From: Enteractinococcus helveticum
GTDB lineage: Bacteria; Actinomycetota; Actinomycetes; Actinomycetales; Micrococcaceae
Direction: 5' to 3'
Assembly: GCF_001657475.1 (NCBI RefSeq)
Contig: NZ_LXEY01000016.1
Span: 62,001-126,000 of the forward strand
DNA length: 64,000 bases
Below, piece after piece: positions 5,129 through 29,098 of the stretch. A program made the position numbers and the translations under genes. Below the pieces are notes generated by a model that saw only the letters and a list, made by a program, of their open reading frames with translations, was not told the origin of the DNA and did not search any database. The first letter of the stretch is position 1, and each line of letters opens with the position of its first letter.

Positions 5129-5151
5129 CAGCACTCCTTTTTCAAAACTGT

Positions 5152-5178: not shown

Positions 5179-5264
5179 GTTTAGCGTGAAACTGTCGTGA
5201 CCGCTACATCGTGAAACGCCATACCCACCACCAATAATCCACCGGCCGACTATGATGGACCCCA

Positions 5265-5774: not shown

Positions 5775-5815
5775 CTTCTCATCTTCGTCTCATCTAGAAC
5801 CCTCATACTAGAACC

Positions 5816-8373: not shown

Positions 8374-8418
8374 ACCCAGCCAACAGGACCTCCACTCGGA
8401 GATATCTAAAAAGCACAG

Positions 8419-8464
8419 GGCCCGCTGATGAGAAAATATCCGCAGAAATTCCCATCAGCGGGCC
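8419..8464. terminator. Bidirectional hairpin terminator
   Basis: A perfect 12-bp GC-rich stem (8419-8430 with 8453-8464) lies between the convergent response regulator and VTC genes, closing both units. Confidence 0.75.
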
Positions 8465-8477
8465 ATATTGGCAAGTG

Positions 8478-9284: not shown

Positions 9285-9287
9285 GGA

Positions 9288-9998: not shown

Positions 9999-10400
9999 GC
10001 TGATGTCTCCTTTTCATTTGCTCTTCATTTCCTATTCACCCTAGGAAGTGTTTATGAAACGAAAAGAAGAAGACGATGAGAAGTTTCTCATTTATCAGTC
10101 GCTATTGGGCTGAGCCTAGACATCCCATATGCTGTAGTACCTTAAGCCCTGGAGAAGTGCTGCAACAACTTTCTCTCGTTGCTCCATGAAAACCTCCTGA
10201 TAAAAAGCTGCAATATATCGTTTGGTCCTTCATCTGCGCCTGTCACAACAATGCTGAAGAGGCTGCACCATATCTCCCACTCTCGTACACCACGTCATAG
10301 AGCGCTACACTTCGGCCCCAGCAGGCTGCAAGATTCCGCACCTTATATGCGACACTTGGGCACAAGCACCCACAGGGAAAAACCGAAAGGCAGCATCGCT
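9999..10400. other. Intergenic region between DUF4956 and cupin genes
   Basis: About 400 nt between divergent genes. It contains a perfect 16-bp palindrome, ATGAGAA-GT-TTCTCAT (10076-10091), about 80 nt upstream of the DUF4956 start. The frame of the cupin gene remains open upstream to 10179, but that stretch has no ribosome site and no cupin-like sequence. I see no RNA gene or additional protein here. Confidence 0.5.
10076..10091. promoter_or_regulatory. 16-bp palindrome upstream of the VTC operon
   Basis: ATGAGAA-GT-TTCTCAT, perfectly symmetrical, in the promoter region of the DUF4956/VTC operon. It is a candidate operator; the binding protein is unknown. Confidence 0.45.
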
Positions 10401-10712
10401 ATGATCTCCACTCCGCGACCACAAGTCACTGCATTAGAAGAGGGCGCAATATTCGACACCAAACAAATGGAGGCTTCTGAGGGCGTCCAGTGGCCTCGAC
10501 ATAAAGCATCTGAAGAATCCGTTTTGGTGGTCACCGAGGGCCAACTTATTGTGGAATTTTCGGACACCAAACCACAACTCATAGCCGGTCAAAGCATCGT
10601 GATTCCCGCTGAAGTGTGGCATGAGATTATCCCAGACCCTATGTTCAAGGCCATCCACATCATGCCCAAGGGCATCCGTTTCACATTCGCAGGCGGCCAA
10701 GCAACGTTATAG
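10401..10712 (+). CDS. Small single-domain cupin protein
   Basis: A 103-residue cupin. I start at ATG 10401, which follows AAAGG. The barrel is recognisable from WPRHKASEESVLVVTEGQL (motif 1 region; the usual GxxxxxHxH is degenerate with one clear His) and GQSIVIPAEVWHEI (motif 2, with the conserved Pro and His). Only a partial metal site is visible, so it may be a binding or sensory cupin rather than an enzyme. It lies upstream of the trimethylamine monooxygenase gene on the same strand, but 265 nt of structured DNA separate them. Confidence 0.7.
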   Translation: MISTPRPQVTALEEGAIFDTKQMEASEGVQWPRHKASEESVLVVTEGQLIVEFSDTKPQLIAGQSIVIPAEVWHEIIPDPMFKAIHIMPKGIRFTFAGGQATL

Positions 10713-10801
10713 GAGCTCAACTGTCATGCAAGCGACTTCACGGGACCATTATCAACACGCCGATTGAGAGGTTTTAAGTATAAAAGTCGAGAATTCGATA
10801 C

Positions 10802-10914
10802 AATGACCCTGTTGAGCATGTCTAGACAAGGCATTCCGCAGGGTCATTATCTGCCCGTTCCCAGGAGAACGGTGCCACCCTGTTACCACGGATTTCGTGG
10901 GGTGTAGAGGCTAC
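10802..10914 (+). ncRNA. Hairpin-rich leader upstream of the monooxygenase gene
   Basis: Four hairpins can be drawn in a row. A perfect 10-bp inverted repeat AATGACCCTG/CAGGGTCATT pairs 10802-10811 with 10839-10848. CCGTTC/GAACGG pairs 10855-10860 with 10867-10872. A bipartite stem pairs CACC (10876-10879) and CCACG (10886-10890) with CGTGG (10896-10900) and GGTG (10901-10904). A short GTAG/CTAC stem follows. They precede the GTG start at 10978. I do not recognise a known riboswitch class. The first hairpin could simply end the cupin transcript or serve as an operator. Confidence 0.35.
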
Positions 10915-10977
10915 GCAAAAAGCGCTTGATTTGCTTCCACCGCCTGACCGGCATGCATAGGTTAACGAAAGGACACT

Positions 10978-12387
10978 GTGCAAAAACAGCGTATTGCGAT
11001 TATCGGCGCCGGCCCGAGCGGTCTGGCGGCATTGAGAGCCTTTGAGTCGGCAGAACGAGCCGGGGCAGCTATCCCTGAAATCGTTTGCTATGAGAAGCAA
11101 GATGATTGGGGAGGGCAGTGGAATTACTCGTGGCGCACTGGTATCGATCAATACGGTGAGCCGGTGCACTCCTCGATGTACCGTAACCTCTGGTCGAACG
11201 CTCCAAAAGAGGCTCTCGAGTTCGCAGAATATACGTTTGATAAGCACTTCGGGCGTCCCATCTCCTCATACCCGCCACGCGAAGTGCTGTGGGATTATAT
11301 TGACGGACGTCTTCGCTCCAGTAATGCCAGAGACAAGGTGCAATTTGCAACCGCAGCGCGCTGGGTGCAATATAACGAGGCCACTGATACCTTCACCGTC
11401 ACGGTAGAAGATCTCAAAACTCGCACCACCTCATCATCGGAATTCGACCGAGTCATCGTAGCCACCGGTCACTTCGCCTACCCGAACGTCCCAAGTTTTG
11501 AGGGCATCGAAACCTTCCCGGGCTCGGTAGAACACGCACACGATTTCCGGGGTGCCGAAATGTTGGCGGACAAACGCGTGCTGATGATCGGCTCGTCATA
11601 CTCGGCCGAAGATATCGGCGTCCAGGCGTATAAGATGGGCGCGCGCAGTGTCACGCTGAGCTACCGGTCCAAAGCCCTTGGCCACGACTGGCCGCAAGGG
11701 ATGGAAGAACTGCCTCTGGTCCAGCGCATTGAAGGCAATAGCGTGCACTTTATCAACGGTGAAGTCCGTGAATTTGATTCGATCGTCATGTGCACTGGCT
11801 ACATCCATAAATACCCATTCTTACCAAGTCAGCTGGCTATCGACTCACCAAACAACGTGTACCCTAGCGGGCTCTACCGCGGCGTCGTCTGGCAAGAAAA
11901 TCCGAAGCTGTATTATCTGGGCGCACAAGACCAGTGGTTTACCTTCAATATGTTTGATGCCCAAGCCTGGTATGTTCGCGATCTGATCCTTGGCCGCACA
12001 GCCCTACCATCTGTGCAAGACCGTGCAGCACATATCGAATCGTGGTCGAAACGCTTCAGCGAATTGTCCTGTGTCGATGACGAAGTTCGTTTCCAAGCCG
12101 ACTACATTCGAGATCTGATCGAAAACAGCGACTACCCAATGTTCGATCTCGACTCAGTAGTAGAGATTTTCATAGCGTGGCAGCGCGATAAAGCCGAAAA
12201 CGTGCTTACCTACCGCGATAAGCAATACCGCTCAGTTATGACCGGAACGATGTCGGCACGGCACCACACCCCATGGATGCGCGAATTGGACGACTCGTTG
12301 CAGCGTTACCTGTCACAACCTGAAAAAGACGAGATAGCAAAGATGCTCGACGACGAAGACGTCACCGAATCTATCAGAGCAAACTAA
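10978..12387 (+). CDS. tmm: Flavin-dependent trimethylamine monooxygenase
   Basis: Bacterial class B flavin monooxygenase of 469 residues that oxidises trimethylamine to its N-oxide with NADPH and O2. The FAD site GAGPSG (10-15), the FMO fingerprint FPGSVEHAHDF, the NADPH site GSSYSAEDI and the ATGHF strand are present. Long blocks characteristic of Methylocella-type Tmm are recognisable (WGGQWNYSWRTG, SMYRNLWSN, YPPREVLWDYI, DQWFTFNMFDAQAWY, MTGTMSARHHTPW). GTG 10978 follows AAAGGA. Related enzymes also oxidise dimethyl sulfide and indole. No Tdm-type TMAO demethylase is seen in the window. A hairpin terminator follows directly. Confidence 0.9.
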   Translation: MQKQRIAIIGAGPSGLAALRAFESAERAGAAIPEIVCYEKQDDWGGQWNYSWRTGIDQYGEPVHSSMYRNLWSNAPKEALEFAEYTFDKHFGRPISSYPPREVLWDYIDGRLRSSNARDKVQFATAARWVQYNEATDTFTVTVEDLKTRTTSSSEFDRVIVATGHFAYPNVPSFEGIETFPGSVEHAHDFRGAEMLADKRVLMIGSSYSAEDIGVQAYKMGARSVTLSYRSKALGHDWPQGMEELPLVQRIEGNSVHFINGEVREFDSIVMCTGYIHKYPFLPSQLAIDSPNNVYPSGLYRGVVWQENPKLYYLGAQDQWFTFNMFDAQAWYVRDLILGRTALPSVQDRAAHIESWSKRFSELSCVDDEVRFQADYIRDLIENSDYPMFDLDSVVEIFIAWQRDKAENVLTYRDKQYRSVMTGTMSARHHTPWMRELDDSLQRYLSQPEKDEIAKMLDDEDVTESIRAN

Positions 12388-12399
12388 GCACTGACGAGT

Positions 12400-12442
12400 A
12401 GAGCTCAGCCTCCAACCAATGATGTGTTGGAGGCTGAGCTCT
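12400..12442. terminator. Bidirectional terminator between tmm and the ATP-sulfurylase-like gene
   Basis: A perfect 17-bp stem (12400-12416 with 12426-12442) with a 9-nt loop lies between convergent genes. Confidence 0.85.
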
Positions 12443-12459
12443 TTGCTACGAGTCGCGGC

Positions 12460-14169
12460 TTAGTAATAGAGATCGTAGGGCGCGATATTCCACACCCGGT
12501 GTGCTGTTTTGTCTTGGGTGATGGGTTCGCCAGCTTCTGTGAGAATCTTCTTGGCGATATCTAACTCGTTTTGTGCCTCATGGCGGTCCTGATACATGAA
12601 CTCATCAGAGGCTTCAGCGGACGCATTGGCGACTTTTTCTTCCAAGGTTCGGATAACCAGTTCTTGTTCTTTCAGCACGTCAGCGTGAGCTTTTTCCACC
12701 CAGGCTGGCTGTCTGACGCGATTGATATCTGCGGTTCGAGCATACTCTTCAGCGGTCTGTTTATAAATGAGTCCAGCGTTTTCGTGGATGTCGAGCATGA
12801 TGGCTTCGATATCTTCTCTTGTTAGGTCATCGGGATTCAACGGTTTTTCACGTCGACGGCCACCAATGCCCTTGTAGGTGAGATAGTACGGGAACATGGT
12901 CTGAATCAATTTGCCAGCTGGCTTGACCGATTCGCCGTCGTCATTGAGGCCTTTCGGCTGGACTCCTTGGATGCCGATGCGCCCCGATTCTGGGCGAGCA
13001 ATCTCTTCGGGAGGCATGAAACCGTGGCGCAACAGCTCACGAATTCCCGAGCCTGAAATGTAGATCCGTGTGCTGTCATCGTGTGCGCAGGTTTTCAAGG
13101 TCGTGGGCTGAGCACAGCGTACGCAGTAAAACACCTCGTTGAAGAAGCGAATATCAATGCCCAACTCTTCTGGTGTGAACTCATCAAAGATACTTTGACT
13201 TTCATAAAGCTCGTAGTAATCCCCCACGCCTGCATAATCACGACCAACGATCTTGTGAGTACACCCAAGATTTTTCAAAATGAGCGCGTGGAGTACTGCT
13301 TCGCGAGGCCCAGCAAAAACATAGGTCACCCGCAGCGGAAACATGATGGTTCGATCTGATGGATAATATTCATCCAGCACGCTTCGATACGCCAACATCC
13401 GGAACTCATGGCGGGTATATTCACGCTTCGCCATTTCTACCAACGGCAACAACAGCAGTGCATCAACTTCTTCTAAGAGGTTCTTTTGCATGTACTCATG
13501 GCCGCGGTGCATTGGGTTTGCCCCGGTCACGAATCCTGCCACACTGGTGTACTTTTGCTCTTCATAGAAAAGCTGCCAGGTTTCTTTGGGCTCCATCCGC
13601 ATGCCTTCAAACGGTCCCCAGTCAGGTCGATTCAGCAACGTGATTTTCCCGGCCAGTGCAGTATCCCCCATGCGCCGATAGATCGCATCGACACCTGGGT
13701 GCTTGCGATCCGTGGTGCCGAAAATATGTTTCGCACGGTGGGCCCTGTCGTAGGAGAAGATATCGTCCAGGTGCAGCAGAGCAATAGGTTTATGGTCTTC
13801 GTCGACCAAAACGACGTCCTCACCGACGGACAGGGATTTTACGACGTCGCTATTACGCTCCCCGATTGGCGCAAAGCTCAAGGGAACTGGCCAAGGCAAG
13901 CCATTCGTCATGCGCCCGGTTTCTAAACATGAAAGGTATTCTTGCTCATTCATGAAACCTTCGTTGGGCGAGAGGACGCCGGTAGCAATCAGTTCTAAAG
14001 TAATGGCGGCTTCAAGATCCACCATGATCTTCGGTACGCTTTGAGCTGTTTCAAGTCCTTGTTTTCGTGCCTCGCCTGTTGCCACGCGGTCCACGAGCTT
14101 GCCACCGTGGGGCTGCTGTGGATACGTCGCGAATTTTTCTTGATCCAGTACCAGTGGTTGCTCTACCAT
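12460..14169 (-). CDS. ATP-sulfurylase-like nucleotidyltransferase with altered sulfate site and C-terminal extension
   Basis: 569 residues from ATG 14169; a TTG 42 nt upstream is an alternative. Residues 1-395 align by motif with dissimilatory-type ATP sulfurylase: GVLSPNEGFMNE, the PMHRGHEY nucleotide loop, VFAGPREAVLHALI, IVGRDYAGVGDYY, a Cys/Cys/Cys/His zinc site (349, 352, 361, 363) and SGSGIRELL. The sulfate-contacting QxRN segment reads VTGAN (about 214-218), with Gln and Arg both lost and one residue inserted, and GRDH is GRDY. Beyond about 396 there is an extra helical domain of about 170 residues that standard enzymes (about 390) lack. ATP use is likely; sulfate as substrate is doubtful. 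It is convergent with tmm. Confidence 0.75.
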   Translation of the reverse strand: MVEQPLVLDQEKFATYPQQPHGGKLVDRVATGEARKQGLETAQSVPKIMVDLEAAITLELIATGVLSPNEGFMNEQEYLSCLETGRMTNGLPWPVPLSFAPIGERNSDVVKSLSVGEDVVLVDEDHKPIALLHLDDIFSYDRAHRAKHIFGTTDRKHPGVDAIYRRMGDTALAGKITLLNRPDWGPFEGMRMEPKETWQLFYEEQKYTSVAGFVTGANPMHRGHEYMQKNLLEEVDALLLLPLVEMAKREYTRHEFRMLAYRSVLDEYYPSDRTIMFPLRVTYVFAGPREAVLHALILKNLGCTHKIVGRDYAGVGDYYELYESQSIFDEFTPEELGIDIRFFNEVFYCVRCAQPTTLKTCAHDDSTRIYISGSGIRELLRHGFMPPEEIARPESGRIGIQGVQPKGLNDDGESVKPAGKLIQTMFPYYLTYKGIGGRRREKPLNPDDLTREDIEAIMLDIHENAGLIYKQTAEEYARTADINRVRQPAWVEKAHADVLKEQELVIRTLEEKVANASAEASDEFMYQDRHEAQNELDIAKKILTEAGEPITQDKTAHRVWNIAPYDLYY

Positions 14170-14481
14170 TGCTTCCCGTTCTTCACTTGGAGTTCCATCC
14201 AGGCTCGGCAAGCCGATGGGGACATCCTTTTGCTAAAAAACTCTTCAGCGCTATGAGTGGAGGAGCATGAACGATGCCGCTGCTCGACGTTGCAAGCAGA
14301 CACCCAATCGACTGTGACCCTCATCACGAGCGCACATGTATCGGATGCTACTGTGAGGTGCTACAAAAGGGAACTGCCCATACCCCACTGCGGGAAGTGC
14401 TGTTCTCACGACGACGATTTGTCACCGCCGGGGCGAGATTTATTCGAATCTGCGACGGAGTCCATGATTGGGGCCTGAATA
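14170..14481. other. Intergenic region between the ATP-sulfurylase-like and nitrilase genes
   Basis: About 310 nt between two genes on the minus strand. It should hold the promoter of the ATP-sulfurylase-like gene. Short Cys-rich plus-strand reading frames (14257-14504) are open but have no homology I recognise. No clear hairpin or operator is seen. Confidence 0.4.
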
Positions 14482-15279
14482 TTAGACTTTCGGTTGGACA
14501 GTGAAGCGTCGTCCGGTCAGTGCGGGGTTTATTGTCCGGACGTTTGCTATGCGTTCTGGGCTAAGGTCTGCTCGCGCAATACCGACGTCATCGCCAATCA
14601 TGGCAATCGTGTTGCCCATCGGATCGATGATTGAGCTATGACCAACACCGGTTGGCGCGGACTGACCGGCGGCTACCACATAGACCGTGTTCTCGATGGC
14701 ACGAGCACGCAGCAATGTCGTCCAATGGTTTTCTTTTAGCGGTCCTGGAACCCAGGCAGCGGGAAGCGCCAATACGTCTGCCCCAGCATCAACCAACACC
14801 CGAGAGACTTCCGGAAAGCGCAGGTCATAACAGGTTTGCAAGCCAACCTTGAGACCGTTGACTTCCAGGAGCTGTGGTTCTTCGATGGCACCAGGTTCGA
14901 TCCACTTGGATTCATGGGCCCCGAAAGCATCATAAAGGTGCAACTTGCGATAGGTGGATTTGAGTTCACCCTCTTGGACACCAACCAGTGTATTGAACAC
15001 ACGCCCCTGGCCATTGGGCTCATTCATGCCTGCGATGATGACAATATTCTTTTCGGTGCTCAGTGCCCGCAAGGTGGTGACCGTGCGGCCGTCAAGCTCC
15101 TCGGCATTTTCAATATACGTCTCGTCGAGATCCGGTTTGGCATAGGTGGCATACTCTGGCAGCACCGCCAGGTCTGCGCCCTGGTCGGCGGCTTTGCCTA
15201 TGAGTTGTTTGACGAGCTCAAGATTCTCGTCTTTGTCAGTTGTTGGAGCATATTGGATAACTGCAGCATGAAGATTCAT
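14482..15279 (-). CDS. Nitrilase-superfamily amidohydrolase
   Basis: A 265-residue carbon-nitrogen hydrolase. The catalytic triad is visible: Glu in AVLPEYATY (about 42), Lys in TYRKLHLYD (about 110) and Cys in LQTCYDLRFPE (about 150). Length and the YRKLHLYD and RFPE blocks place it with the Nit1/Nit2 and omega-amidase-like branch, which hydrolyses small amides such as deaminated glutathione or 2-oxo acid amides. ATG 15279 follows GGAGAAGGA. It stands between the ATP-sulfurylase-like gene and an IclR gene, all on the minus strand, but gaps of 300 and 70 nt make a shared operon uncertain. Confidence 0.88.
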   Translation of the reverse strand: MNLHAAVIQYAPTTDKDENLELVKQLIGKAADQGADLAVLPEYATYAKPDLDETYIENAEELDGRTVTTLRALSTEKNIVIIAGMNEPNGQGRVFNTLVGVQEGELKSTYRKLHLYDAFGAHESKWIEPGAIEEPQLLEVNGLKVGLQTCYDLRFPEVSRVLVDAGADVLALPAAWVPGPLKENHWTTLLRARAIENTVYVVAAGQSAPTGVGHSSIIDPMGNTIAMIGDDVGIARADLSPERIANVRTINPALTGRRFTVQPKV

Positions 15280-15348
15280 ATGTTTCCTTCTCCCCCAGTG
15301 AAGCGTGCTAGCAGAATAACGCTCTACGTCCTGTGGAAAAAGGTCTCA

Positions 15349-16134
15349 TCACCGTTGATTCCACGCTTGCTGCTGGAGAGCCTGTGACAATTCATGTGCG
15401 TGGTGCATCAGCAGCTTGCCTATTTCGTCTCGACGAGGTTGTTTGAATCGTTGCTCAATACCAGTCAGACTCAGTGCTCCAGCAGGAAATCCCGTGACGT
15501 CGAAAACGGGAGCCGCTATCCCCCAGCTGCCTTCGACAATCAGGCCTGGGTTGGTCACATATCCCTTATGACGGCCATCGGCAATGCGCTCACGGATTGA
15601 CGCTGGGCTATGGGCGGCCGAATGCTCGGCGATCAGGTCATGCTCAGCAAGGTAGTCTTCGACCTGGCGTTGCGGCATGAACGCCAGGATTGCTAGGCCG
15701 GCAGACGCGACGCCGAGCGGAAATCGCCGTCCCTCATAAAGTACGAAAGACCGGATTGGGAATGCGCCGTCCTCGCGGACCAAACACACCGTCTCGTTGC
15801 CGCGCAGAGTGGAGAAGAATGCGGACTCTTCGGTTTGCTGTGCCAGGGCGTGCACATGTTTTTGCGCGGTCTCCGTGACGTCGTAACGGGCGCCGGCGAT
15901 GTTGCCCAATAAAAAGAGCTCTGGACCCAACAGCCACCGGCCGGATTTGGCATCCTGGTCGCAAAAACCTTCAGCGGCCAAAGAGTCCAGTATGCGATGT
16001 GCCGTGGGCCGTGCCATGTCGGACTGGCGGGCAGCATCCGAGGTCGTGACGCCGTTGGGCATAGCACCAGAGACCACTCGCAATAACGCTGCTGCGCGGG
16101 ACAGCACTTGGACACCGGATCCTTTTTTCGCCAT
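15349..16134 (-). CDS. IclR-family regulator of the CoA-transferase operon
   Basis: A 261-residue IclR regulator with an N-terminal winged helix (about 8-70, ending MARPTAHRILDSLAAEG) and a C-terminal effector domain. The frame is open upstream, but ATG 16134 gives the normal MAKKGSGVQVLSRAAALL beginning. It is divergent from the 3-oxoacid CoA-transferase/thiolase operon at 16285, and two palindromes lie in or beside the spacer, one abutting its own start. PcaR-like or acetoacetate-responsive control of the operon and of itself is the natural reading. The effector is not known. Confidence 0.88.
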   Translation of the reverse strand: MAKKGSGVQVLSRAAALLRVVSGAMPNGVTTSDAARQSDMARPTAHRILDSLAAEGFCDQDAKSGRWLLGPELFLLGNIAGARYDVTETAQKHVHALAQQTEESAFFSTLRGNETVCLVREDGAFPIRSFVLYEGRRFPLGVASAGLAILAFMPQRQVEDYLAEHDLIAEHSAAHSPASIRERIADGRHKGYVTNPGLIVEGSWGIAAPVFDVTGFPAGALSLTGIEQRFKQPRRDEIGKLLMHHAHELSQALQQQAWNQR

Positions 16135-16149
16135 GTCCACATTATGGAC
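16135..16149. promoter_or_regulatory. Palindrome GTCCA-N5-TGGAC at the IclR start
   Basis: A 5+5+5 palindrome immediately upstream of ATG 16134; probable autoregulatory IclR site. Confidence 0.5.
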
Positions 16150-16256
16150 ACTTTGTGTGCCTCTTGTCACCTTCTGAGCAATTGCCCTCGAAAATATAGG
16201 GAACACTTGTTCATTTGCAAGGGCATCAGTAGGTTCATTATCAGATTCAGTAATCA

Positions 16257-16267
16257 CCACATCGTGG
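16257..16267. promoter_or_regulatory. Palindrome CCAC-ATC-GTGG upstream of the CoA-transferase genes
   Basis: A short symmetrical site 18 nt before the CoA-transferase A start, sharing the TGGAC-like half-site with 16135-16149. Possible second IclR site. Confidence 0.4.
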
Positions 16268-16284
16268 ACAGATGAGAAAAGAGT

Positions 16285-16995
16285 ATGCACTTGAAGTACC
16301 AAGATGATGCGCTGGAGGCACTGGCCTCAGTCATAGAAGATGGAATGACCATCGCCGTCGGTGGATTTGGGCTCTCCGGGAACCCCACACGATTGATCCA
16401 TGCACTGCGTGACACGGGGGCTAAAGATCTCACCATCGTTTCCAACAACATGGGTGTCGACGGCAAGGGTCTGGGGATCCTGTTAGAAAACCAGCAGGTC
16501 TCCAAAGTCATTGCATCCTACGTGGGAGAAAACAGCCTGTTTGCGCAACAGTACCTCTCCGGTGAGCTCGAAGTTGAGTTCTCGCCGCAGGGCACACTGG
16601 CCGAGCGACTGCGTGCCGGCGGCGTCGGCATCCCGGCATTTTTTACCGCGACCGGTGTTGGCACCGAAATTGCTCAGGGTAAAGAAGAACAAGTCTTCAA
16701 TGGTCAGCGCGCCATTATGGAAAAAGGTATCCGCGCTGATATCGCCCTGGTCAAAGCGCACACAGCCGATACAGAAGGCAACCTGCGTTATCGCAAGACC
16801 TCCATGAACTTCAATCCACTGGCGGCAATGTCGGGTCAGTTCACGCTGGCCGAAGCCGAGCACATGCTCGACGATTTCATGGATCCAGAACTGGTCCATA
16901 CCCCGGGCATCTTCGTCCAGGCGCTCGTGGATGCTGATCCGGTCAAGGACATTGAAAACGTTACCGTCCGCTCCCTGCAGGAGGTTGCATCATAA
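16285..16995 (+). CDS. scoA: 3-oxoacid CoA-transferase subunit A
   Basis: A 236-residue alpha subunit of a class I CoA-transferase that moves CoA from succinyl-CoA to a 3-oxoacid. GGFGLSGNP (about 26-34), the SYVGEN block, [14 protein letters not shown] and [12 protein letters not shown] are family hallmarks. Its stop overlaps the start of subunit B by one base, and a thiolase gene follows, making a complete module for acetoacetate or beta-ketoadipate activation and cleavage. The sequence looks closer to the ScoA/SCOT type than to PcaI, but the two cannot be separated securely by eye. Confidence 0.9.
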
Positions 16996-20784: not shown

Positions 20785-20831
20785 AGTCACATTGTGTCGG
20801 CGATAACACTGATGTGCAAAAATGTTCTGCC

Positions 20832-21671
20832 ATGCAGAAACCTCAAACTTTCCGAAAGCCTCCACAGTATCCCGTAGAGTCGGTGGACCACGCGCTGGCG
20901 CTTCTGGAAATGGTGCGCGATTTTGGCCGAGTACGAATCAGCGTCGCAGCGAAACTGCTGGGCATATCAACGTCAACTGCGCATCGACTCATGGCAATGC
21001 TGGTGTATCGCGGATACGCCGAACAAGATGCCTCGCGCCGGTATGTGCCGGGGCCGTCAATGGGCCTAACTCCCGCTGGCTTGTCCTGGACGGCGGAATT
21101 GCGGCACCGGGCCCGACCTCACTTAGAAACACTGACTGAACAAGTACAGGAGACTTCAAACTTGGTGGTGTTAGCCGGCGACGCCGTGCGATTCTTGCTG
21201 TCCGTGGAATACAGTTCTGTGCCACCCCCCGCCGCACCTGTAGTGGGCGACAGTATTTCAGAACCTGGTGTCATTGGCGACCGGCGCGGCGTTGTCTTGC
21301 CCGCTGACAAAGCATCGGGCGGCAAAGCCATCTTGGCTCAGCTGACACGGGAGCAAATCCAACGGATCTTTCAGAAGGATCTTCGCCAACGAGATGGGAC
21401 CTTGGATACCTCACGATTAGATCAGCTGCTGAACAAGGCGGCGATCATTCGAGCGCGAGGATTTGCCACCAACATCGAAGACACCGAAGCTGGCGTCAGC
21501 GCTCTAGGCGTAGCTATTCACGACGGAGAAGGCGCCGCCATAGCGGGCTTGAGCGTGTCGGTTCCACATCATCGTTTCAGCAAGGTAGTCGATGCCGGAT
21601 TAGTTGGTCGCATCCAACAGACCAAACTTGAACTCGAAGAAGCCCTCCTCGACTTCTCCGCGCACGGGTAA
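20832..21671 (+). CDS. IclR-family regulator, probable control of the divergent transporter
   Basis: 279 residues from ATG 20832; a frame-compatible start lies 18 nt upstream. The N-terminal winged helix contains RISVAAKLLGISTSTAHRL, and the C-terminal domain is the IclR effector fold with the usual DKASGGKAILA and ATNIEDTEAGVSALGVAI blocks. Only about 47 nt separate it from the MFS start, so both promoters overlap. The spacer contains TGTCGGCGATAACA, an imperfect TGT/ACA inverted repeat that could be its site. Likely inducer: the transported aromatic acid. Confidence 0.87.
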   Translation: MQKPQTFRKPPQYPVESVDHALALLEMVRDFGRVRISVAAKLLGISTSTAHRLMAMLVYRGYAEQDASRRYVPGPSMGLTPAGLSWTAELRHRARPHLETLTEQVQETSNLVVLAGDAVRFLLSVEYSSVPPPAAPVVGDSISEPGVIGDRRGVVLPADKASGGKAILAQLTREQIQRIFQKDLRQRDGTLDTSRLDQLLNKAAIIRARGFATNIEDTEAGVSALGVAIHDGEGAAIAGLSVSVPHHRFSKVVDAGLVGRIQQTKLELEEALLDFSAHG

Positions 21672-21880
21672 AGACTCTTCTGACCACCAGAAACCATTAT
21701 CTGTCACGTTATGGTGATGACCCGCTGGTCCAACGCTGCTGTCAACGTTGTCGCAGTGGCGAGGTTTGATCGACTACCCGTTCCAACTGTTCTCATCGTC
21801 AGGCATTATGGAGAGCAACCGGTAGTTTCCCTCCACCGGGGAACAGGTGTTCAACGACCCTGAGAAAGTCGAGCGTCTAT

Positions 21881-23197
21881 ATGTCATATGAACCTACTGA
21901 TCCCGTCTTCAAGCCGAACGCCAGCGACGAGGCTATCCATGACGATAAACGAGCCTCCAGAAAGCGTCGTCGTTTCGAAAATAGTTGGGCGATTTCACTC
22001 TTTGGTACGGCCGTCGGCGCTGGCATCCTGTTTCTTCCAATGAACGCCGGGGCCGGAGGGGTCTGGCCACTGATTATCGCTACCTTGCTCATTGGGCCGA
22101 TGACGTTTTTCGCGCATCGTGGGCTGTCGCGATTCGTGTCCGCCTCAGAGAATCCCGGTGCTGATATCACCGTGGTTGCCCGTGAGCTTTTCGGCCCGGT
22201 CGGCGGACAAGTTGTCACGATCCTCTACTTCCTGGCCATCTTCCCCATCGTCATGATCTATGGCATTGCCATTACCAATACCGTCGATAGCCTGCTGGTT
22301 GAGCAGTTGAATTGGGGTTCTCCTCCACGCTGGTTACTTTCCGGGGTGTTGATTGCACTGATGATGCTCGTGATGATCCGAGGTCAACGCGTCATGCTCG
22401 TGGCCATGCAATGGTTGGTATATCCGCTCATTGCAGCCTTGCTCGGCGTCACCCTGTTCCTCATTCCTTCGTGGCAACTGAGCTTCATTACTGAGACGAC
22501 GCATTCATGGGGTGAGATGGGCCAAGCGCTCTTATTGGTTATCCCCGTGCTGATCTTTGCCTTCAACTTCTCGCCGGCGGTTTCTCAATACACCTTGGCC
22601 ATGCAACGACGCTATGGTCCCGAGTCTGATGCCCGTGGCAATGTGGTGCTGCGTCGGACCACGATTTTGCTGGTCATTTTCACCATGGGGTTCGTCTGGT
22701 CCACCATATTGGCGCTGGGGGCAGATGGACTTCAGCAAGCCCGGGAATCGAACCTGCCGGTCTTGTCCTACCTGGCTCAGGTGATGGATGCCCCCTTCAT
22801 TGAATACCTCGGCCCGGCAGTCGCCATTGCGGCAATTGGTTCCTCATTCTTTGGACATTATCTCGGCGCCGCTGAAGGAGCTGCCGGCATCGTCCGCTCA
22901 GTGGTGACGGCAGCAGGGAAAGAGCCCGCCGAGAAAACCATCAGTTTCGGGGTGGCAGTTTTTATTTTCCTTTCCACCTGGGGAGTCGCCATTCTCGACG
23001 TCGGTATTTTAGACATGATCGAAACCCTGGCAGGCCCAATTATTGCTGTGGTGCTCTATTTGATGCCGATGTATGCGATTCATCGGTTCGACGCGTTGGA
23101 AAAATATCGGGGCAAGGCCTCCAACGTTTTCACAACCGTCGCCGGTATCGCCGCGGTGGCCTGCATTATCTACCGAATCTTCGTCGTGGGGCTTTAG
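21881..23197 (+). CDS. Serine/threonine-type amino acid permease (HAAAP/SdaC family)
   Basis: A 438-residue membrane protein with about eleven hydrophobic segments. The TM1 loop SLFGTAVGAGILFLPMNAG is characteristic of the SdaC/TdcC serine-threonine proton symporters, and the EYLGPAVAIAAIGSSFFGHYLGAAEG segment is also family-like. A basic RASRKRRRFEN stretch precedes TM1, consistent with an inside N-terminus. The gene stands alone, with about 200 nt on each side. Substrate within the small-hydroxy-amino-acid range is an inference; no serine deaminase is adjacent. Confidence 0.85.
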   Translation: MSYEPTDPVFKPNASDEAIHDDKRASRKRRRFENSWAISLFGTAVGAGILFLPMNAGAGGVWPLIIATLLIGPMTFFAHRGLSRFVSASENPGADITVVARELFGPVGGQVVTILYFLAIFPIVMIYGIAITNTVDSLLVEQLNWGSPPRWLLSGVLIALMMLVMIRGQRVMLVAMQWLVYPLIAALLGVTLFLIPSWQLSFITETTHSWGEMGQALLLVIPVLIFAFNFSPAVSQYTLAMQRRYGPESDARGNVVLRRTTILLVIFTMGFVWSTILALGADGLQQARESNLPVLSYLAQVMDAPFIEYLGPAVAIAAIGSSFFGHYLGAAEGAAGIVRSVVTAAGKEPAEKTISFGVAVFIFLSTWGVAILDVGILDMIETLAGPIIAVVLYLMPMYAIHRFDALEKYRGKASNVFTTVAGIAAVACIIYRIFVVGL

Positions 23198-23334: not shown

Positions 23335-23412
23335 CCTGAAAAAAGTCATTGAAACATATAAAACTTAAGGTTATGGTTTTTACACCTAAGTGATCTACCT
23401 AACTTTTTCAGG
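23335..23412 (+). promoter_or_regulatory. Nested inverted repeats at the aldehyde dehydrogenase start
   Basis: An outer repeat CCTGAAAAAAGT (23335-23346) / ACTTTTTCAGG (23402-23412), with one bulged A, encloses an inner imperfect repeat ACTTAAGGT / ACCTAAGT. The outer right arm covers the first bases of the AGGAG ribosome site of the gene at 23420. It could act as an operator or as an RNA hairpin limiting translation. Confidence 0.4.
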
Positions 23413-23419
23413 AGTCTTC

Positions 23420-24895
23420 ATGGTTTTGTCAGCGGATGTCTCACGCTCCGACACTTCTTTTGCACCTCGTCTGCCTCAGTGCAGCCACTTCATTGATGGT
23501 CAGCACGTCGACCCATCAGGTTCAGAAACCACTGAAGTTGTTGACCCAGCCCGAGGTAAGGCCATAGTGTCGCTCCGGCTCGGCAACGAGAAGGATGTCG
23601 ATACTGCGGTTTGCGCAGCTCGAGCTGCGCTTCCCACGTGGGCAGCAAAAACACCACAGGCCCGTTCAGAGCTGCTCCTTGCTTTGGCAGAGGCAATCGC
23701 TACAGATCGGGAGAATTTAGAAAAGCTCGAAGCCATCAACTGTGGGAAACCACTCGCGGTAACCGCCGATGACGTCGACAGCACCATAGACGTTTTTCGC
23801 TTTATGGCCGGGGCTGGGCGTACCGGCTCAACTATTCCGGCTGGTGACTACGTTGCAGACACCATGTCGCTAGTACTAAGAGAACCCATTGGCGTGATTG
23901 GACTAGTTACACCCTGGAATTACCCATTGCTGATGGGCGCATGGAAAATCTCGGCAGCACTGATGGCAGGCAATACGGTCGTGTATAAACCCAGCGAAGT
24001 CACTCCTCTAACCTCGCTGCGGCTCGCAGAACTTGCTAAAGACATACTTCCCGCCGGGGTACTGAATCTAGTCCTGGGTACCGGGCCAGAAGTTGGTCAA
24101 TCCCTGAGCAAGCATCCGCAAGTCGATATGATGGCATTAACCGGTAGTGTGCGCGCTGGAATGGCTGTTGCGTCTACCATCGCATCGGATCTCAAGCGTG
24201 GCCATTTTGAGCTCGGCGGTAAGGCTCCAGTAATTATCTGCGATGACGCCGACCTTGAGAATGCAGCCAACACCGTTACTGAAGCGGGTTACTGGAACTC
24301 TGGACAAGAGTGTGGCGCTGCAACTCGCGTCATCATTCATGAGTCTGTAGCTGACGAATTCACCCAACTACTGGCGCAGAAAGTTGGATCCTATGTCCTC
24401 GCCGATCCAGAAATACCCGGCGAGGAAAACCTCGGACCCATGATTTACCAGGGTCACTACGCCAAAGTCATGGACATGATCGGTGAAGCCGTAGAGCGTG
24501 GCGCCGAAATCGTGCTCGGTGGCAACGGCGATGACTCTGCCGGATTCTGGGTAGAGCCAACGATTCTTAAAGTCTCGATCGGGGACCCGATCACGGAAAA
24601 CGAAGTCTTTGGTCCAGTGGTCACCATCGAAACGTTTAGCGATCTCACTGAAGCGGTCGAACGCGCCAACGCCGTGGAATATGGGCTCACCGGCTCCGTC
24701 TTTACGGCAGATGTCTCAACCGCCCTCGAGGTCTCAAAAGCTCTGGACTTCGGAAGCGTCAATGTCAATACGCATTTAGCCTTGCCGACTGAAATGCCCT
24801 GGTCAGGTTTCAAACATAGTGGTTACGGGCGCGACCTCTCAGCATATGCCTTAGACGATTTCTCTCGCACCAAACATATCGCCATTCGTCACTAA
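23420..24895 (+). CDS. Aminoaldehyde dehydrogenase (gamma-aminobutyraldehyde type)
   Basis: 491 residues from ATG 23420 after AGGAG. NAD(P)-dependent aldehyde dehydrogenase with the Rossmann VTPWNYPLLM segment, the catalytic Glu in ELGGKAP and the nucleophile Cys in NSGQECGAATR. The C-terminal MPWSGFKHSGYGRDLSAYAL block is typical of aminobutyraldehyde and betaine-aldehyde dehydrogenases. It oxidises an amino-aldehyde to an amino acid. First gene of a three-gene operon with a flavoprotein oxidase (47-nt gap) and an EutH-type permease, which suggests the aldehyde arises from oxidation of an imported amino alcohol. Confidence 0.9.
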   Translation: MVLSADVSRSDTSFAPRLPQCSHFIDGQHVDPSGSETTEVVDPARGKAIVSLRLGNEKDVDTAVCAARAALPTWAAKTPQARSELLLALAEAIATDRENLEKLEAINCGKPLAVTADDVDSTIDVFRFMAGAGRTGSTIPAGDYVADTMSLVLREPIGVIGLVTPWNYPLLMGAWKISAALMAGNTVVYKPSEVTPLTSLRLAELAKDILPAGVLNLVLGTGPEVGQSLSKHPQVDMMALTGSVRAGMAVASTIASDLKRGHFELGGKAPVIICDDADLENAANTVTEAGYWNSGQECGAATRVIIHESVADEFTQLLAQKVGSYVLADPEIPGEENLGPMIYQGHYAKVMDMIGEAVERGAEIVLGGNGDDSAGFWVEPTILKVSIGDPITENEVFGPVVTIETFSDLTEAVERANAVEYGLTGSVFTADVSTALEVSKALDFGSVNVNTHLALPTEMPWSGFKHSGYGRDLSAYALDDFSRTKHIAIRH

Positions 24896-24941
24896 CCCCA
24901 CTTATCAACTTCCACATCAACTCTGAATAACGGAGAGACTC

Positions 24942-26198
24942 ATGACCGCACAAAGCATTTCGAATGCCAAAGTCAACCAACCATGGAAAAACTGGGGAGG
25001 CAACCAAGAATTCACACCAGCGCTCACAGTTCGTCCAACAACCGAAGCCGAGATAGTAGCTGCAGTTCGGCATGCTATTCAAGAAAAGATGACCGTTCGG
25101 GTAGCCGGGGCCGGTCACTCATTCACACCGGTTGTTGCTACCAACGGCTTGCTGCTCGATCTTTCGGACATGCAACAAGTCACCGGGGTCGACTCCGAAA
25201 CCCGACGTGTCAGGGCACTCGGCGGCACACAAATCGACAAGTTCGGCGACCCCCTTTGGAAAGCTGGACTATCTCTCGGTAACCAAGGCGACATTGACAA
25301 ACAAGCCATCGCCGGTGCAATTTCGACTGCAACCCACGGCTCGGGAATCGAGTCAGGGTGTTTCTCCTCCATGATCACCTGGGTTCGCCTAATCAATGGC
25401 CACGGTGAAATCATTGAAATCGACGAAGGCGATATGAAACGCCTGCGTGCCGCCCAGGTTGCCGTCGGGACCCTCGGCGTTATCCTCGAAGTCGAACTTC
25501 AAGCGGTACCGGCGTACCATCTTCGCGAAGAAATCACTTATGAAACGACCGACGAACTGTTAGATGGATGGGACCAAAACCCACACAACGCTCGTCATTT
25601 CTCGTTCCTATGGTGCCAGGCTCCAGAATCTGCCGGACTCTACGAACTCCCAACCCCACCTGGCTTAGATATGGTCGGGCGGGCATATACCAAGAGATAT
25701 TGGGCCGAAGATCTCGACGACGTCAATAACCCGATCACCGAAGAAGGACGACGACACGACCGCGCTTACAGAATCTATCCAGGTGGTTTCGGGATACCCT
25801 TCCACGAGCTGGAATATTATGTCGGTGTCGATCGAGCTAAAGACGCCTGGATTGCGCTGAAAGATTTAATCTTCGAACAACACCCAGAGCAGAAATATCC
25901 AATTGAAACCCGCTGGACACAAGCTGACCAGGGTTATATCTCACCGTTTTATAGAGAAGACAAAGTTTCGCTTTCTGTTTCGGGGGCTCCCGGCACTAAC
26001 TACGAACCGTACTTGCGCGACGTCGACAAGTTGCTGCAGCAATTTGATGCCACAGTGCACTGGGGCAAGATTCATTATTTGACCAGGGAGCGAGCTGACA
26101 AGCTCTTTCCTGAAATTGAAACATTCCGTCAGGTCCGTCGCGAGCTTGACCCCAACGGAGTGTTCCTGAATAAGCACACCGAGGAACTCTTTTCCTAG
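24942..26198 (+). CDS. FAD-dependent oxidase, VAO family (alditol/aldonolactone oxidase type)
   Basis: A 418-residue two-domain flavoprotein. The N-terminal FAD domain shows VRVAGAGHSFTP (about 52-63), whose His is the position of covalent FAD attachment in alditol and gulonolactone oxidases, and ISTATHGSG (about 125-133). The C-terminal half ends DPNGVFLNKHTEELF, the usual terminus of the ALO/AldO family. Such enzymes oxidise a primary or secondary alcohol with O2, giving an aldehyde or ketone and H2O2. Here it sits between an aminoaldehyde dehydrogenase and an EutH permease, so an amino alcohol substrate is inferred. ATG 24942 follows GGAGAG. Confidence 0.88.
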   Translation: MTAQSISNAKVNQPWKNWGGNQEFTPALTVRPTTEAEIVAAVRHAIQEKMTVRVAGAGHSFTPVVATNGLLLDLSDMQQVTGVDSETRRVRALGGTQIDKFGDPLWKAGLSLGNQGDIDKQAIAGAISTATHGSGIESGCFSSMITWVRLINGHGEIIEIDEGDMKRLRAAQVAVGTLGVILEVELQAVPAYHLREEITYETTDELLDGWDQNPHNARHFSFLWCQAPESAGLYELPTPPGLDMVGRAYTKRYWAEDLDDVNNPITEEGRRHDRAYRIYPGGFGIPFHELEYYVGVDRAKDAWIALKDLIFEQHPEQKYPIETRWTQADQGYISPFYREDKVSLSVSGAPGTNYEPYLRDVDKLLQQFDATVHWGKIHYLTRERADKLFPEIETFRQVRRELDPNGVFLNKHTEELFS

Positions 26199-26228
26199 TT
26201 TCCTAGGATGAAGTGAGCGGAGGCTCTC

Positions 26229-27461
26229 ATGGAATTTGTAGGGACAGCCGTTATTTGGCTGATGATGTTATTCGTCGTCATTGGTGCGATCGGTGCGATC
26301 AAGGACGATACCAAGGGTATAGGCCTCGAATTCAAAGAAGGTATTTATTCAATTGGTCCAATCTTCTTACCGGTCGCTGGCATCATGGCGTCCATTCCGT
26401 ATCTGTCACAGTTCGTGGAAGCGATTACGGGCCGAATCTTTGCATTCATGGGTGCCGATCAAGCCATGGCAGCTGGAGCTCTAATCGCCGGTGACATGGG
26501 CGGATACAATCTTGCGAACGTCCTGGCGGAATCGCACGGCGCCTGGATCATGGCGAGCGCAACAGCTTTCATGTCGGGTTCCACTATTGTGTTCTCGATT
26601 CCAGTTGGTTTGGCCATGCTGGAGAAACGACATCACCGCTACCTTGCTCTCGGCGTGATGTCCGGGGTGTTGACGATTCCAATCGGAGTCTTTTTCACCA
26701 CCCTAATCTTGAAGGTCACCCAGACGCGGTTACGCAGTGAAATCAATACAACCGGTGAATCAGACCAGGTTTTTGAACTCTCGTGGGGCGAGATTATCGC
26801 CAACCTCATCCCGATCGTTATTTTTGTTGTCGCTCTTGCACTTCTACTCAGACTGGCAACTGACTTTATGATCAAAGCGTTCCTAATCTTTGGCAAAGTT
26901 CTTGATACCGCGCTGAAGGTGGTGTTAGCCCTAGTCATTGTCGAATACTTCACCGGCATCCTTTCCACCATTTTGGGCGGCTGGGGTTTCGATCCGATCA
27001 TTGCAGATGAAGAAGACCAATTCCGTGCGCTCGAAATCGCAGGTGCTATCGGCATCATGCTTGCCGGAGCGTTCCCACTGGTTTATGTCATTCGTAAATA
27101 CCTCGCCGTGCCTCTGGATGGGGTCGGCAAGCGGATAGGGATGAGCTCAGAAGGCATGGCCGGAGTCTTAGCGGCATCGGCAAATATTCTAGCTATGTTC
27201 CGGTTAATTCCCACTATGCCACCAAGAGATCGCGTCATAGCTATCGCTTTTTCCGTTTGTGCAGCCTTCACATTTGGTGATCACCTGGCATTCATGGCGA
27301 ACTTCCAACCCAACATGGTGGTTCCGCTGGTAGTTTCCAAGCTGGTAGCCGGTGTTATAGCAATGCTCTTGGCACTGTGGTTAGCCGTACCAAAAGCGTT
27401 GAAGCTGGCCGAACAGTACAAACATGAAGAAGAGGAAGCGAAAAAGAAAGTCGAAGCCTAA
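26229..27461 (+). CDS. eutH: EutH-family permease (ethanolamine-type)
   Basis: 410 residues, about eleven hydrophobic segments and a charged Glu/Lys tail. It matches EutH by several blocks: LIAGDMGGYNLA, the SGSTIVFSIPVGLAMLE segment, YLALGVMSGVLTIPIG, and FTFGDHLAFMANF near the end. EutH in enterobacteria imports ethanolamine for the B12-dependent eut pathway, but no eutBC ammonia lyase or microcompartment gene is present. The neighbours are an oxidase and an aminoaldehyde dehydrogenase, which would allow an oxidative route instead. The start follows GGAGG, 30 nt after the oxidase gene; a hairpin terminator closes the operon. Confidence 0.88.
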   Translation: MEFVGTAVIWLMMLFVVIGAIGAIKDDTKGIGLEFKEGIYSIGPIFLPVAGIMASIPYLSQFVEAITGRIFAFMGADQAMAAGALIAGDMGGYNLANVLAESHGAWIMASATAFMSGSTIVFSIPVGLAMLEKRHHRYLALGVMSGVLTIPIGVFFTTLILKVTQTRLRSEINTTGESDQVFELSWGEIIANLIPIVIFVVALALLLRLATDFMIKAFLIFGKVLDTALKVVLALVIVEYFTGILSTILGGWGFDPIIADEEDQFRALEIAGAIGIMLAGAFPLVYVIRKYLAVPLDGVGKRIGMSSEGMAGVLAASANILAMFRLIPTMPPRDRVIAIAFSVCAAFTFGDHLAFMANFQPNMVVPLVVSKLVAGVIAMLLALWLAVPKALKLAEQYKHEEEEAKKKVEA

Positions 27462-27471
27462 TAACGATGCG

Positions 27472-27515
27472 GTGGCCAGTTCCTGTTTACGCACTCAGAG
27501 GCAGGAACTGGCCAC
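27472..27515 (+). terminator. Terminator after the eutH-like gene
   Basis: A perfect 14-bp stem GTGGCCAGTTCCTG (27472-27485) pairs with 27502-27515. No T-run. Confidence 0.75.
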
Positions 27516-27589
27516 TACCTAGTTAATAACTACTTGTTGCCCACATTCCGAATGATCGTCTCAAGAATCTGTGAAGGTATGGTACCGGT

Positions 27590-29098
27590 ATGAGCCCTTC
27601 AAAAAAGCTTCATTCGGAAGTTGCTACCTCTGGCAATTTGGCAATCGTGAGCCAATTGCACGTCCCCATGAAGCCATCTTCAAGATCGAGCGCAGTGGAA
27701 CACCAACTCCGCACCGGCATTGGTATCGGCGTTCTTGAAGCGGGAACCCGGTTACCGAACGAGCAGATAATGGCTCGGCACATGGGTGTTTCGGCCCTTA
27801 CGTTCCGTCAAGCCCTGGATAGATTACGTGAAGCAAGGCTCGTCAGTACCCGTCCCGGACGCGGCGGCGGTACCTTTATCAGCGCCTCATTATCCGCCTT
27901 GGAACAACTATCCCAACAAGCTCTATCTGATATTTCCTTAGCAAAAATCGCAGACCTGGGCCATTCAGTTTCCGAACTGCACGCATCAGCTGCACGCCTA
28001 GCTGCTCAGCGTCGCGATGACATCGATATCAATGAACTCCGGCTGAGCGCTGATCGTTTGCTTGAACCAATGACCGCGATTGAACGTCGTCGGGCCAGCA
28101 CGCTTTATGTCATCACGATCGCCCGCATTGCGCGATCAGAGACGCTTTTAGCAGCTCTGGTTCCATTGATAGGAGAGTTCCAACTTTTGGCATGGACCGA
28201 TGAAGCCAACGGTCTCATTGCCGAATTGAATCATGCAGCCCAGCAAACAGTAGATGCTATCCTTCGTGCCGCACATGACGAGGCTGCGGAAGCCGCCAGG
28301 AAACACCTACAACTTATAGCCCGACAGATTGTCCGAGAACGCTCCCTGTTATTTGCCACTCGTGTCACCCAAGATGATTTATCTCCTCAAGCAGCGTTTC
28401 ATGAATTGCTGGGACATATTCAACAGATACGAGCCAGCCTCCAGAACGGCTGCCAGCGACTGATCGAACTTGAAGCGCCCAGATACGCCAGAGCAGAACC
28501 CTCCGACGAGATTGATGCGATTCTCAAAAATATCGCAAGCCAGAACAACACGCTGCTTCGGGGCGCCGGTATAGCCTACGCGCCGGGGATGTTGGAAGAT
28601 AGCCGTTTGTGGATGGACTGGTGGGATAGCGATTACGGCCTCGACCTCACATTTAAATCTCACGACTTTAATGCGCGTTCGCTGCAGTACTACGACTACG
28701 AACACATGCGTTGGTTTACCGAACCACTTCGCACTGGCAAATTTTCAGTAATAGGACCGTACCTTGATCGAGGCGGTATCGAGACTTCTACGATTACCGT
28801 CTCACTTCCAATTACCGAAGGAGCCTATGCCGGGTGCGTGCTCGGCGCAGATCTGCATATACCCGGGATCGAAGAAATCTTGCTGAGCAAGAGCAAAGCC
28901 ACTGCTCATGACCATATTTTGGTTACCGATGCCAAGCGCGTGCTTGTATCAACCAGCCCTGTAGCAATGCACGGGGCACTGCTCGAGCCATCCTGTACTG
29001 GCCAGCTGACAGTCGTAGCTCAGGAAAATGGTCACCCGCTAACGCACTGGCAATTACTCACTGCTGCAGGGAACGACAATCAAACTCCGAGACAATAA
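27590..29098 (+). CDS. GntR regulator with C-terminal Cache (PDC) sensor domain
   Basis: A 502-residue one-component regulator. Residues 35-105 form a GntR winged helix (LPNEQIMARHMGVSALTFRQ, then PGRGGGTFI). Residues 110-260 are helical and FCD-like. Residues about 320-490 resemble a PDC/Cache ligand domain: WMDWWDS, MRWFTEPLRTGKFSVIGPY, STITVSLPI and GCVLGADLHI. Cache domains are normally extracellular sensors; here no membrane segment is seen, so it would sense a small ligand in the cytosol. It directly follows the eutH operon terminator on the same strand and is the obvious regulator of that operon. A second in-frame ATG at 27668 is possible. Confidence 0.85.
   Translation: MSPSKKLHSEVATSGNLAIVSQLHVPMKPSSRSSAVEHQLRTGIGIGVLEAGTRLPNEQIMARHMGVSALTFRQALDRLREARLVSTRPGRGGGTFISASLSALEQLSQQALSDISLAKIADLGHSVSELHASAARLAAQRRDDIDINELRLSADRLLEPMTAIERRRASTLYVITIARIARSETLLAALVPLIGEFQLLAWTDEANGLIAELNHAAQQTVDAILRAAHDEAAEAARKHLQLIARQIVRERSLLFATRVTQDDLSPQAAFHELLGHIQQIRASLQNGCQRLIELEAPRYARAEPSDEIDAILKNIASQNNTLLRGAGIAYAPGMLEDSRLWMDWWDSDYGLDLTFKSHDFNARSLQYYDYEHMRWFTEPLRTGKFSVIGPYLDRGGIETSTITVSLPITEGAYAGCVLGADLHIPGIEEILLSKSKATAHDHILVTDAKRVLVSTSPVAMHGALLEPSCTGQLTVVAQENGHPLTHWQLLTAAGNDNQTPRQ

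Follow-up and report, generated by a model that had tools for sequence, protein, structure and literature searches.

A candidate amine-inducible, cobalamin-free operon for the oxidation of a small amino alcohol in Enteractinococcus helveticum

The window analysed here is a stretch of 64,000 nucleotides from Enteractinococcus helveticum (contig NZ_LXEY01000016.1, positions 62,001 to 126,000, forward strand), whose genome assembly comprises 3.67 Mb in 117 contigs. It contains a cluster of four genes encoding an aldehyde dehydrogenase (ALDH), a flavoprotein oxidase of the VAO family, a permease of the EutH family and a GntR regulator fused to a Cache-type sensor domain, which we examined as a candidate operon for the oxidation of a small amino alcohol. 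All four open reading frames lie on the + strand at the positions given in a preliminary description of the sequence, and the identities proposed there (aminoaldehyde dehydrogenase, VAO-type oxidase, EutH permease, GntR regulator) are supported by Pfam. The features of the locus are as follows.

23349..23377, + strand: promoter-like element TTGAAA-17-TATGGT and candidate operator site (promoter scan); its spacer holds the AT-rich CTTAAG (23364-23369)
23420..24895, + strand: NAD(P)-dependent ALDH, assigned to the aminoaldehyde type (Pfam Aldedh; NCBIfam NF010000 as top model; nearest PDB entries 1wnb and 6c43)
24942..26198, + strand: VAO-family (ALO/AldO-type) flavoprotein oxidase, proposed amino-alcohol oxidase (Pfam, predicted model, conserved residues, clade)
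26229..27461, + strand: EutH-family permease (Pfam EutH; NCBIfam NF011668; synteny)
about 27471..27513, + strand: stable hairpin 3' of eutH without a U-run, probable terminator (fold energy)
27590..29098, + strand: GntR-FCD regulator fused to a putatively cytosolic double-Cache (PDC) sensor domain of amine type (Pfam, model, Foldseek)

Plausible ribosome-binding sites precede the four reading frames. The ALDH gene starts at ATG 23420, just downstream of AGGAG, the mechanically called frame opening at GTG 23390. The gaps between the ALDH and oxidase genes and between the oxidase and EutH genes are only 46 and 30 bp, which suggests that the three genes form one transcript. The hairpin that follows them is very stable (-35.2 kcal/mol, z = -5.0, with none of 200 shuffled sequences folding as well) and is likely an intrinsic terminator, as had been proposed; termination is likely rather than proven, since the U-run is absent. 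An intrinsic-terminator scan passed over this hairpin, probably on account of the long loop and the missing U-run.

The ALDH matches Pfam Aldedh with 495 bits and, among NCBIfam models, scores best against aminobutyraldehyde dehydrogenase NF010000 (550 bits, under the cut-off of 615); its nearest solved structures, 1wnb and 6c43, are also aminobutyraldehyde dehydrogenases, and by sequence it is of the aminoaldehyde type. The oxidase matches FAD_binding_4 (92 bits) and ALO (109 bits), which places it in the VAO family as an enzyme of ALO/AldO type, and scores 278.6 bits against bact_FAD_ox TIGR01679, under the cut-off of 292. The histidine motif for covalent attachment of FAD noticed in the preliminary description is present as GAGHSF, and its His59 is invariant, together with Glu322, Arg324 and Lys376, in all 31 aligned homologues. 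In the computed alignment the latter three residues coincide with what we take to be the catalytic Glu320, Arg322 and Lys375 of AldO. To our knowledge, all characterised relatives bearing this set oxidise C-OH groups; because the set is that of the C-OH-oxidising AldO and galactonolactone dehydrogenase, oxidation of an alcohol is favoured over oxidation of an amine. The chemistry of the flavoprotein, oxidation of a CH2-OH group, we infer from these conserved catalytic residues, and the substrate is likewise inferred.

The predicted model of the oxidase (predicted local distance difference test score, pLDDT, of 91) is nearest in fold to alditol oxidase 8ot8 (Z 46.5, root-mean-square deviation 2.0) and to an ancestral galactonolactone dehydrogenase 8qmy (Z 46.5), with 6-hydroxynicotine oxidase a remote relative. 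Phylogenetic analysis recovered 60 clade members as one actinobacterial group (support 100/100) apart from the gulonolactone-type oxidases, and the substrate-side residues of the window oxidase differ in alignment from those of AldO. We rejected Asp117, at the position of AldO Ser106, as a marker of specificity through ammonium binding, as it is invariant in 31 of 31 homologues, including the gulonolactone-type enzymes.

The permease matches Pfam PF04346 along its full length (profile positions 2-351 of 351; 379.9 bits against a cut-off of 25). It scores 574.3 bits against NCBIfam NF011668, 0.7 under the cut-off of 575, and 221-280 bits against other EutH models. Characterised EutH is an ethanolamine facilitator. 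In about 19 other loci the oxidase gene is followed by a gene for an EutH protein 54-77% identical to that of the window. At a separate locus (L118, G583:C1:4401500-4420500, positions 4123-10320) an EutH-family permease gene follows genes for a DeoR-type regulator, an FGGY kinase and a glycerol-3-phosphate-dehydrogenase-like protein.

The regulator matches Pfam GntR (44 bits), FCD weakly (25.1 bits against a cut-off of 24.3) and MCP-like_PDC_1 (36 bits); with a GntR helix-turn-helix and an FCD domain it belongs to the FadR (FCD) subfamily, and FCD scores reach 58-62 bits in homologues split into two genes. We searched the AlphaFold model of the fused protein (pLDDT 89.6) with Foldseek. The N-terminal half retrieves the GntR-FCD repressors VanR, DhdR and NanR; the C-terminal half, for which a structural comparison with PDC/Cache domains had been suggested, has the putrescine receptor McpU as its top hit, with PctD, TlpQ and McpX among the others. 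A profile of the PDC domain retrieves PctA, PctC, PctB and PctD, so that by profile and by Foldseek the predicted fold is a dCache nearest to amine and amino-acid receptors, as in dCache_1AM domains. Equivalents of PctA W128, Y129, Y144 and D173 are retained in the sensor domains as W/F/Y-or-F/D, and the carboxylate-binding Arg126 of PctA is not conserved, being Met in the window regulator. Because the sensor is nearest to McpU, PctD and TlpQ, and retains the ligand residues of PctA without Arg126, an amine ligand is favoured. The full AM motif of dCache_1AM domains comprises, in PctD, W155, F188, Y189, M215, S217, D235 and the lid residues R103/D133. We compared it by way of the PctA alignment and residue spacing, a Cache profile cut at the GPY motif having given chance or partial receptor matches only; the aromatic pair and the D235 equivalent are conserved and an upstream Trp pair is invariant.

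In about 22 loci the GntR-FCD and PDC parts are two genes, mostly adjacent; the gene order is reversed in Rhodococcus, and in Streptomyces antioxidans the two genes stand apart, flanking the operon on either side. A single fused gene, the rare form, occurs in the window, in Citricoccus and in Brachybacterium. The model supports the Cache fold that the preliminary description proposed for the regulator. The stand-alone PDC proteins have no obvious membrane helix (top 19-residue hydropathy below 2), and so appear to be cytosolic. A published study defined dCache_1AM domains as binding a wide range of amines, two tested domains binding ethanolamine at about 2 uM, and noted that in Actinobacteria some copies stand alone inside the cell and are encoded together with a transcription factor (PMC10104139). 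The split form is thus known as a class; as far as we found, the fusion and the target operon are apparently undescribed, and a literature search on GntR with Cache domains returned nothing on this system.

To determine how widely the cluster is conserved, we scanned 84,980 species and obtained 80 loci matching the oxidase. Their synteny was established by tblastn, longest-reading-frame calls being misleading in high-GC loci. Within the family, 12 of 295 genomes carry an oxidase orthologue (E <= 1e-60), and at the same threshold there was no match in the 8 other sampled genomes of the genus. A class-wide sample of 395 genomes contains two with a clade-like oxidase (> 600 bits) and three with an EutH above cut-off; the other 106 matching genomes, at about 400-520 bits, are read as representing the wider gulonolactone-type family. 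At about 25 loci, spread over nine or more genera, the GntR and Cache parts lie beside the oxidase, in most cases with EutH, in agreement with the conserved neighborhood that the preliminary description proposed to look for. The cluster is sparsely distributed but conserved, and its recurrence in many other genomes puts the gene set far outside what chance would give.

Loci of the oxidase clade were sorted by synteny into four contexts. Type 1, with GntR+PDC, ALDH, oxidase and EutH, occurs in Citricoccus, Arthrobacter SPG23, Leaf337 and OVS8, Leucobacter and Brevibacterium; a Brachybacterium contig has the order oxidase-EutH-regulator, the regulator following EutH as in the window, and any ALDH gene would lie past the contig end. 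Type 1b, in Pseudonocardiaceae, has a divergent GntR+PDC, the oxidase and EutH. In type 3 (Sinomonas, Rhodococcus, Streptomyces antioxidans, Lumbricidophila), GntR+PDC accompanies ALDH-oxidase and an APC permease of TIGR03428 type in place of EutH. Type 2 combines PucR, a ureohydrolase, an NCS1 permease, ALDH and oxidase without EutH or GntR+PDC, in about 35 loci of the Arthrobacter group and one Streptomyces. EutH, which the preliminary description had counted in the set, is thus present in most loci with GntR+Cache; an APC permease takes its place in others, and the oxidase-ALDH pair is found in a guanidino-compound operon as well. In Arthrobacter sp. OVS8 (L093:6372-9178, ALDH and oxidase) and Brachybacterium (L091:473-1691, oxidase) the genes match in two frames, reflecting either decayed genes or sequencing errors.

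The ureohydrolase of the type-2 operons (L040-L055, L059-L067, other Arthrobacter-group loci and L082) is of guanidino-acid type: its nearest sequence relatives are 3-guanidinopropionase 3nip, guanidinobutyrase 3nio and proclavaminate amidinohydrolase, with agmatinases more distant. Because the oxidase and ALDH genes adjoin such a hydrolase, a guanidino acid is suggested as their product, formed from a guanidino alcohol (or an amine, perhaps agmatine-like). These sister operons support a common logic in which an alcohol bearing a cationic nitrogen is converted via the aldehyde to the nitrogen-bearing acid; by analogy, and independently of EutH, the type-1 pair would convert an amino alcohol to an amino acid. 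In the oxidase tree the Arthrobacter type-2 enzymes nest within types 1 and 3. Residues 345-349, which hold the equivalents of AldO His343/Thr345, read SVSGA in types 1, 1b and 3 and TLTTE in Arthrobacter type 2, and positions 61, 62, 234 and 335 switch as well, so that in the aligned sequences the predicted substrate-side residues co-vary with operon context.

Upstream of the operon, the promoter-like site scores 9/12, which on its own is not above chance. Of 14 related operons, 7 have the hexamer TTTAAA upstream, where shuffling predicts 0.48 (none of 1000 shuffles had as many); it also lies in 1 of 91 control upstream regions and before the second EutH gene of the genome. This element was chosen after viewing the same upstream regions, so that the count hints at a signal without amounting to an unbiased test, and we regard TTTAAA, with its variant CTTAAG, as a candidate operator. 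A palindrome search of the upstream regions gave no common long operator. Directly 5' of the operon (20814-23197) the window encodes an IclR-type regulator and a Ser/Thr transporter (STP), a possible link to amino acids; this pair is not kept in the compared loci, except for one IclR gene near L029/L065.

The absence of the EutBC lyase noted in the preliminary description was borne out for EutB (PF06751), which has no match in the whole source genome, the Escherichia coli control being positive. The genome encodes one glycine decarboxylase P-protein. Its second EutH gene, on contig C117, adjoins a split GntR+PDC pair, with glutamine-synthetase-like (GS-like), ALDH and three C26-hydrolase genes close by. 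This cluster resembles the Streptomyces GlnA4 ethanolamine cluster (PMC6529630) and probably encodes a gamma-glutamylation route for an amine. The same cluster (L003, G000:C117:12000-31000, positions 2965-16460) also holds P450 and ferredoxin-reductase-like genes. Between its GS-like and C26-hydrolase genes, L003:6282-6989 encodes an SBP_bac_3-domain protein, with homologues in L132, L133 and L139; it has no evident signal peptide and is perhaps a cytosolic ligand carrier or sensor. Regulators of the GntR+PDC type occur in 16 of 295 family genomes. In three other Micrococcaceae genomes they adjoin a conserved cluster that combines GS-like and SBP-like genes with two for C26 hydrolases; elsewhere in the family the neighbor is an ABC transporter (two genomes) or an APC permease (one genome), the transporters being judged from sequence. 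These other contexts all fit amine use as far as the predicted gene functions go. At L135:5580-11332 and L137:1377-7203 GntR+PDC stands beside an ABC transporter resembling polyamine (Pot) systems, and is likely a polyamine-responsive member of the regulator family.

Ethanolamine is an abundant product of membrane breakdown, and most described bacterial use of it proceeds via a cobalamin enzyme or gamma-glutamylation. We propose, with a probability of roughly one half, that the genes at this locus form an amine-inducible operon that breaks down a small primary amino alcohol by oxidation and without cobalamin, ethanolamine being the most probable substrate. An amine would bind the Cache half in the cytosol and relieve GntR-FCD repression of the ALDH-oxidase-EutH transcript, the ligand and the sign of the response both being suppositions. 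The permease, judged from its family, would admit the amino alcohol. The covalently flavinylated VAO-type enzyme would then use O2 to oxidise its CH2-OH group, giving H2O2 and the aminoaldehyde. The latter would pass to the ALDH, which, by analogy with its family, would yield the amino acid and NAD(P)H. With ethanolamine as the presumed substrate the product would be glycine, usable by the glycine decarboxylase whose gene is present. This pathway, put forward in the preliminary description, is plausible and is strengthened by the absence of EutB, the catalytic residues and the conserved neighborhood, and is unproven at the level of substrate. Several observations weigh against it: EutB is present in 6 of 30 tested carrier genomes, the Pseudonocardiaceae clusters lack ALDH, the window retains only the CTTAAG variant of the shared element, and in its regulator the equivalent of PctD Met215 is Thr, as judged from spacing, with the lid not located. 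In another actinobacterium the neighbors of an EutH gene are those for an FGGY kinase and a glycerol-3-phosphate-dehydrogenase-like protein, so that the family may also carry small molecules other than ethanolamine.

The same operon logic could serve another cationic primary alcohol, such as 3-amino-1-propanol, 4-amino-1-butanol or N-methyl- or N,N-dimethylethanolamine, and yield beta-alanine, gamma-aminobutyric acid or an N-methylated glycine. The proximity of the ALDH to aminobutyraldehyde dehydrogenases, the TIGR03428-type permease that can stand in for EutH, the guanidino compound presumably handled by the sister operons and the many amines bound by dCache_1AM receptors (PMC10104139) are all consistent with this. 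The facilitator role of characterised EutH and the likeness of the second EutH cluster to the GlnA4 ethanolamine cluster point instead to ethanolamine, and we consider a different substrate rather unlikely. Were the oxidase to attack the C-N bond, ethanolamine would give glycolaldehyde, ammonia and H2O2, with the ALDH then forming glycolate. That reaction is the one ascribed to an old ethanolamine oxidase without a sequence, EC 1.4.3.8; the VAO superfamily does include amine oxidases such as the remotely related 6-hydroxynicotine oxidase, and agmatine would fit naturally as the compound on which the sister operon acts. However, the invariant Glu322, Arg324 and Lys376 form the catalytic set of the C-OH-oxidising AldO and galactonolactone dehydrogenase, the nearest folds are those of alditol oxidase and galactonolactone dehydrogenase, and the ALDH is of aminoaldehyde type, which together make attack on C-N improbable. 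It is more improbable still that the flavoprotein is a conventional oxidase of sugars, alditols or lactones, with EutH importing a polyol and a general ALDH, as membership in the ALO/AldO family and the glycerol-kinase-like neighbor of EutH in one genome would allow: the clade stands apart from the gulonolactone-type oxidases with substrate-side residues of its own, and its partners are an amine-type sensor, an aminoaldehyde-type ALDH and amine permeases or a guanidino ureohydrolase.

If amino-alcohol oxidation is correct, the oxidase route would explain the use of ethanolamine by actinobacteria that lack EutBC, and amino-alcohol oxidase activity would gain a candidate gene. In the regulator, a sensor domain of extracellular type would have been relocated to the cytosol and attached to a repressor, a rare case that is open to testing; the genes found around such regulators indicate amine ligands for a whole family of GntR+Cache pairs. 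The wider claim is one we make tentatively, with confidence falling a little short of even: that this is a new O2-dependent, B12-independent oxidase pathway for ethanolamine (or amino alcohols) in Actinobacteria, carried out by a VAO clade not earlier tied to amino alcohols and regulated by a single intracellular protein that senses amines through a Cache domain, normally an extracellular module, fused to a GntR repressor; and that Arthrobacter has put the same oxidase-ALDH module to a second use, on a guanidino alcohol or amine, ahead of a guanidino-acid hydrolase. Literature searches on ethanolamine oxidase and aminoacetaldehyde oxidation returned nothing on this system; the preliminary description knew of no characterised pathway with this gene set. 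For the regulator, pairs of an intracellular amine-type Cache protein and a transcription factor were already known (PMC10104139), to which the fusion and its target operon are the addition.

The proposed system shares with the canonical eut system of E. coli and Salmonella (EutBC, EutH, EutR) an EutH-family permease and ethanolamine as the probable substrate, and differs in that the genome has no EutB, the cluster has no microcompartment genes, oxidation would replace B12-dependent lysis and GntR-Cache would replace EutR. Like the gamma-glutamylethanolamide pathway of Streptomyces GlnA4 (PMC6529630), to which a cluster elsewhere in this genome is related, it would represent B12-free ethanolamine use in Actinobacteria, but the window operon has no GS-like or C26 amidohydrolase/amidotransferase gene and would oxidise the free compound. 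The oxidase resembles AldO (2vfr, 8ot8) and the galactonolactone/gulonolactone oxidases in fold (Z 44-46), covalent-FAD histidine motif and Glu/Arg/Lys set, whereas it is only about 25% identical, falls in a separate clade and has the strand of AldO His343/Thr345 changed with operon type. With the intracellular dCache_1AM proteins encoded beside transcription factors (PMC10104139), the regulator has in common a predicted cytosolic Cache partner of amine type and the genera Arthrobacter, Rhodococcus and Streptomyces; here, however, the protein is fused, is tied to a specific oxidase/EutH operon and does not fully match the strict AM motif. Finally, the guanidino-acid operons of guanidinobutyrase and guanidinopropionase are connected to this one through the sister oxidase-ALDH pair that Arthrobacter couples to such a ureohydrolase, while the window operon itself has no ureohydrolase, NCS1 permease or PucR.

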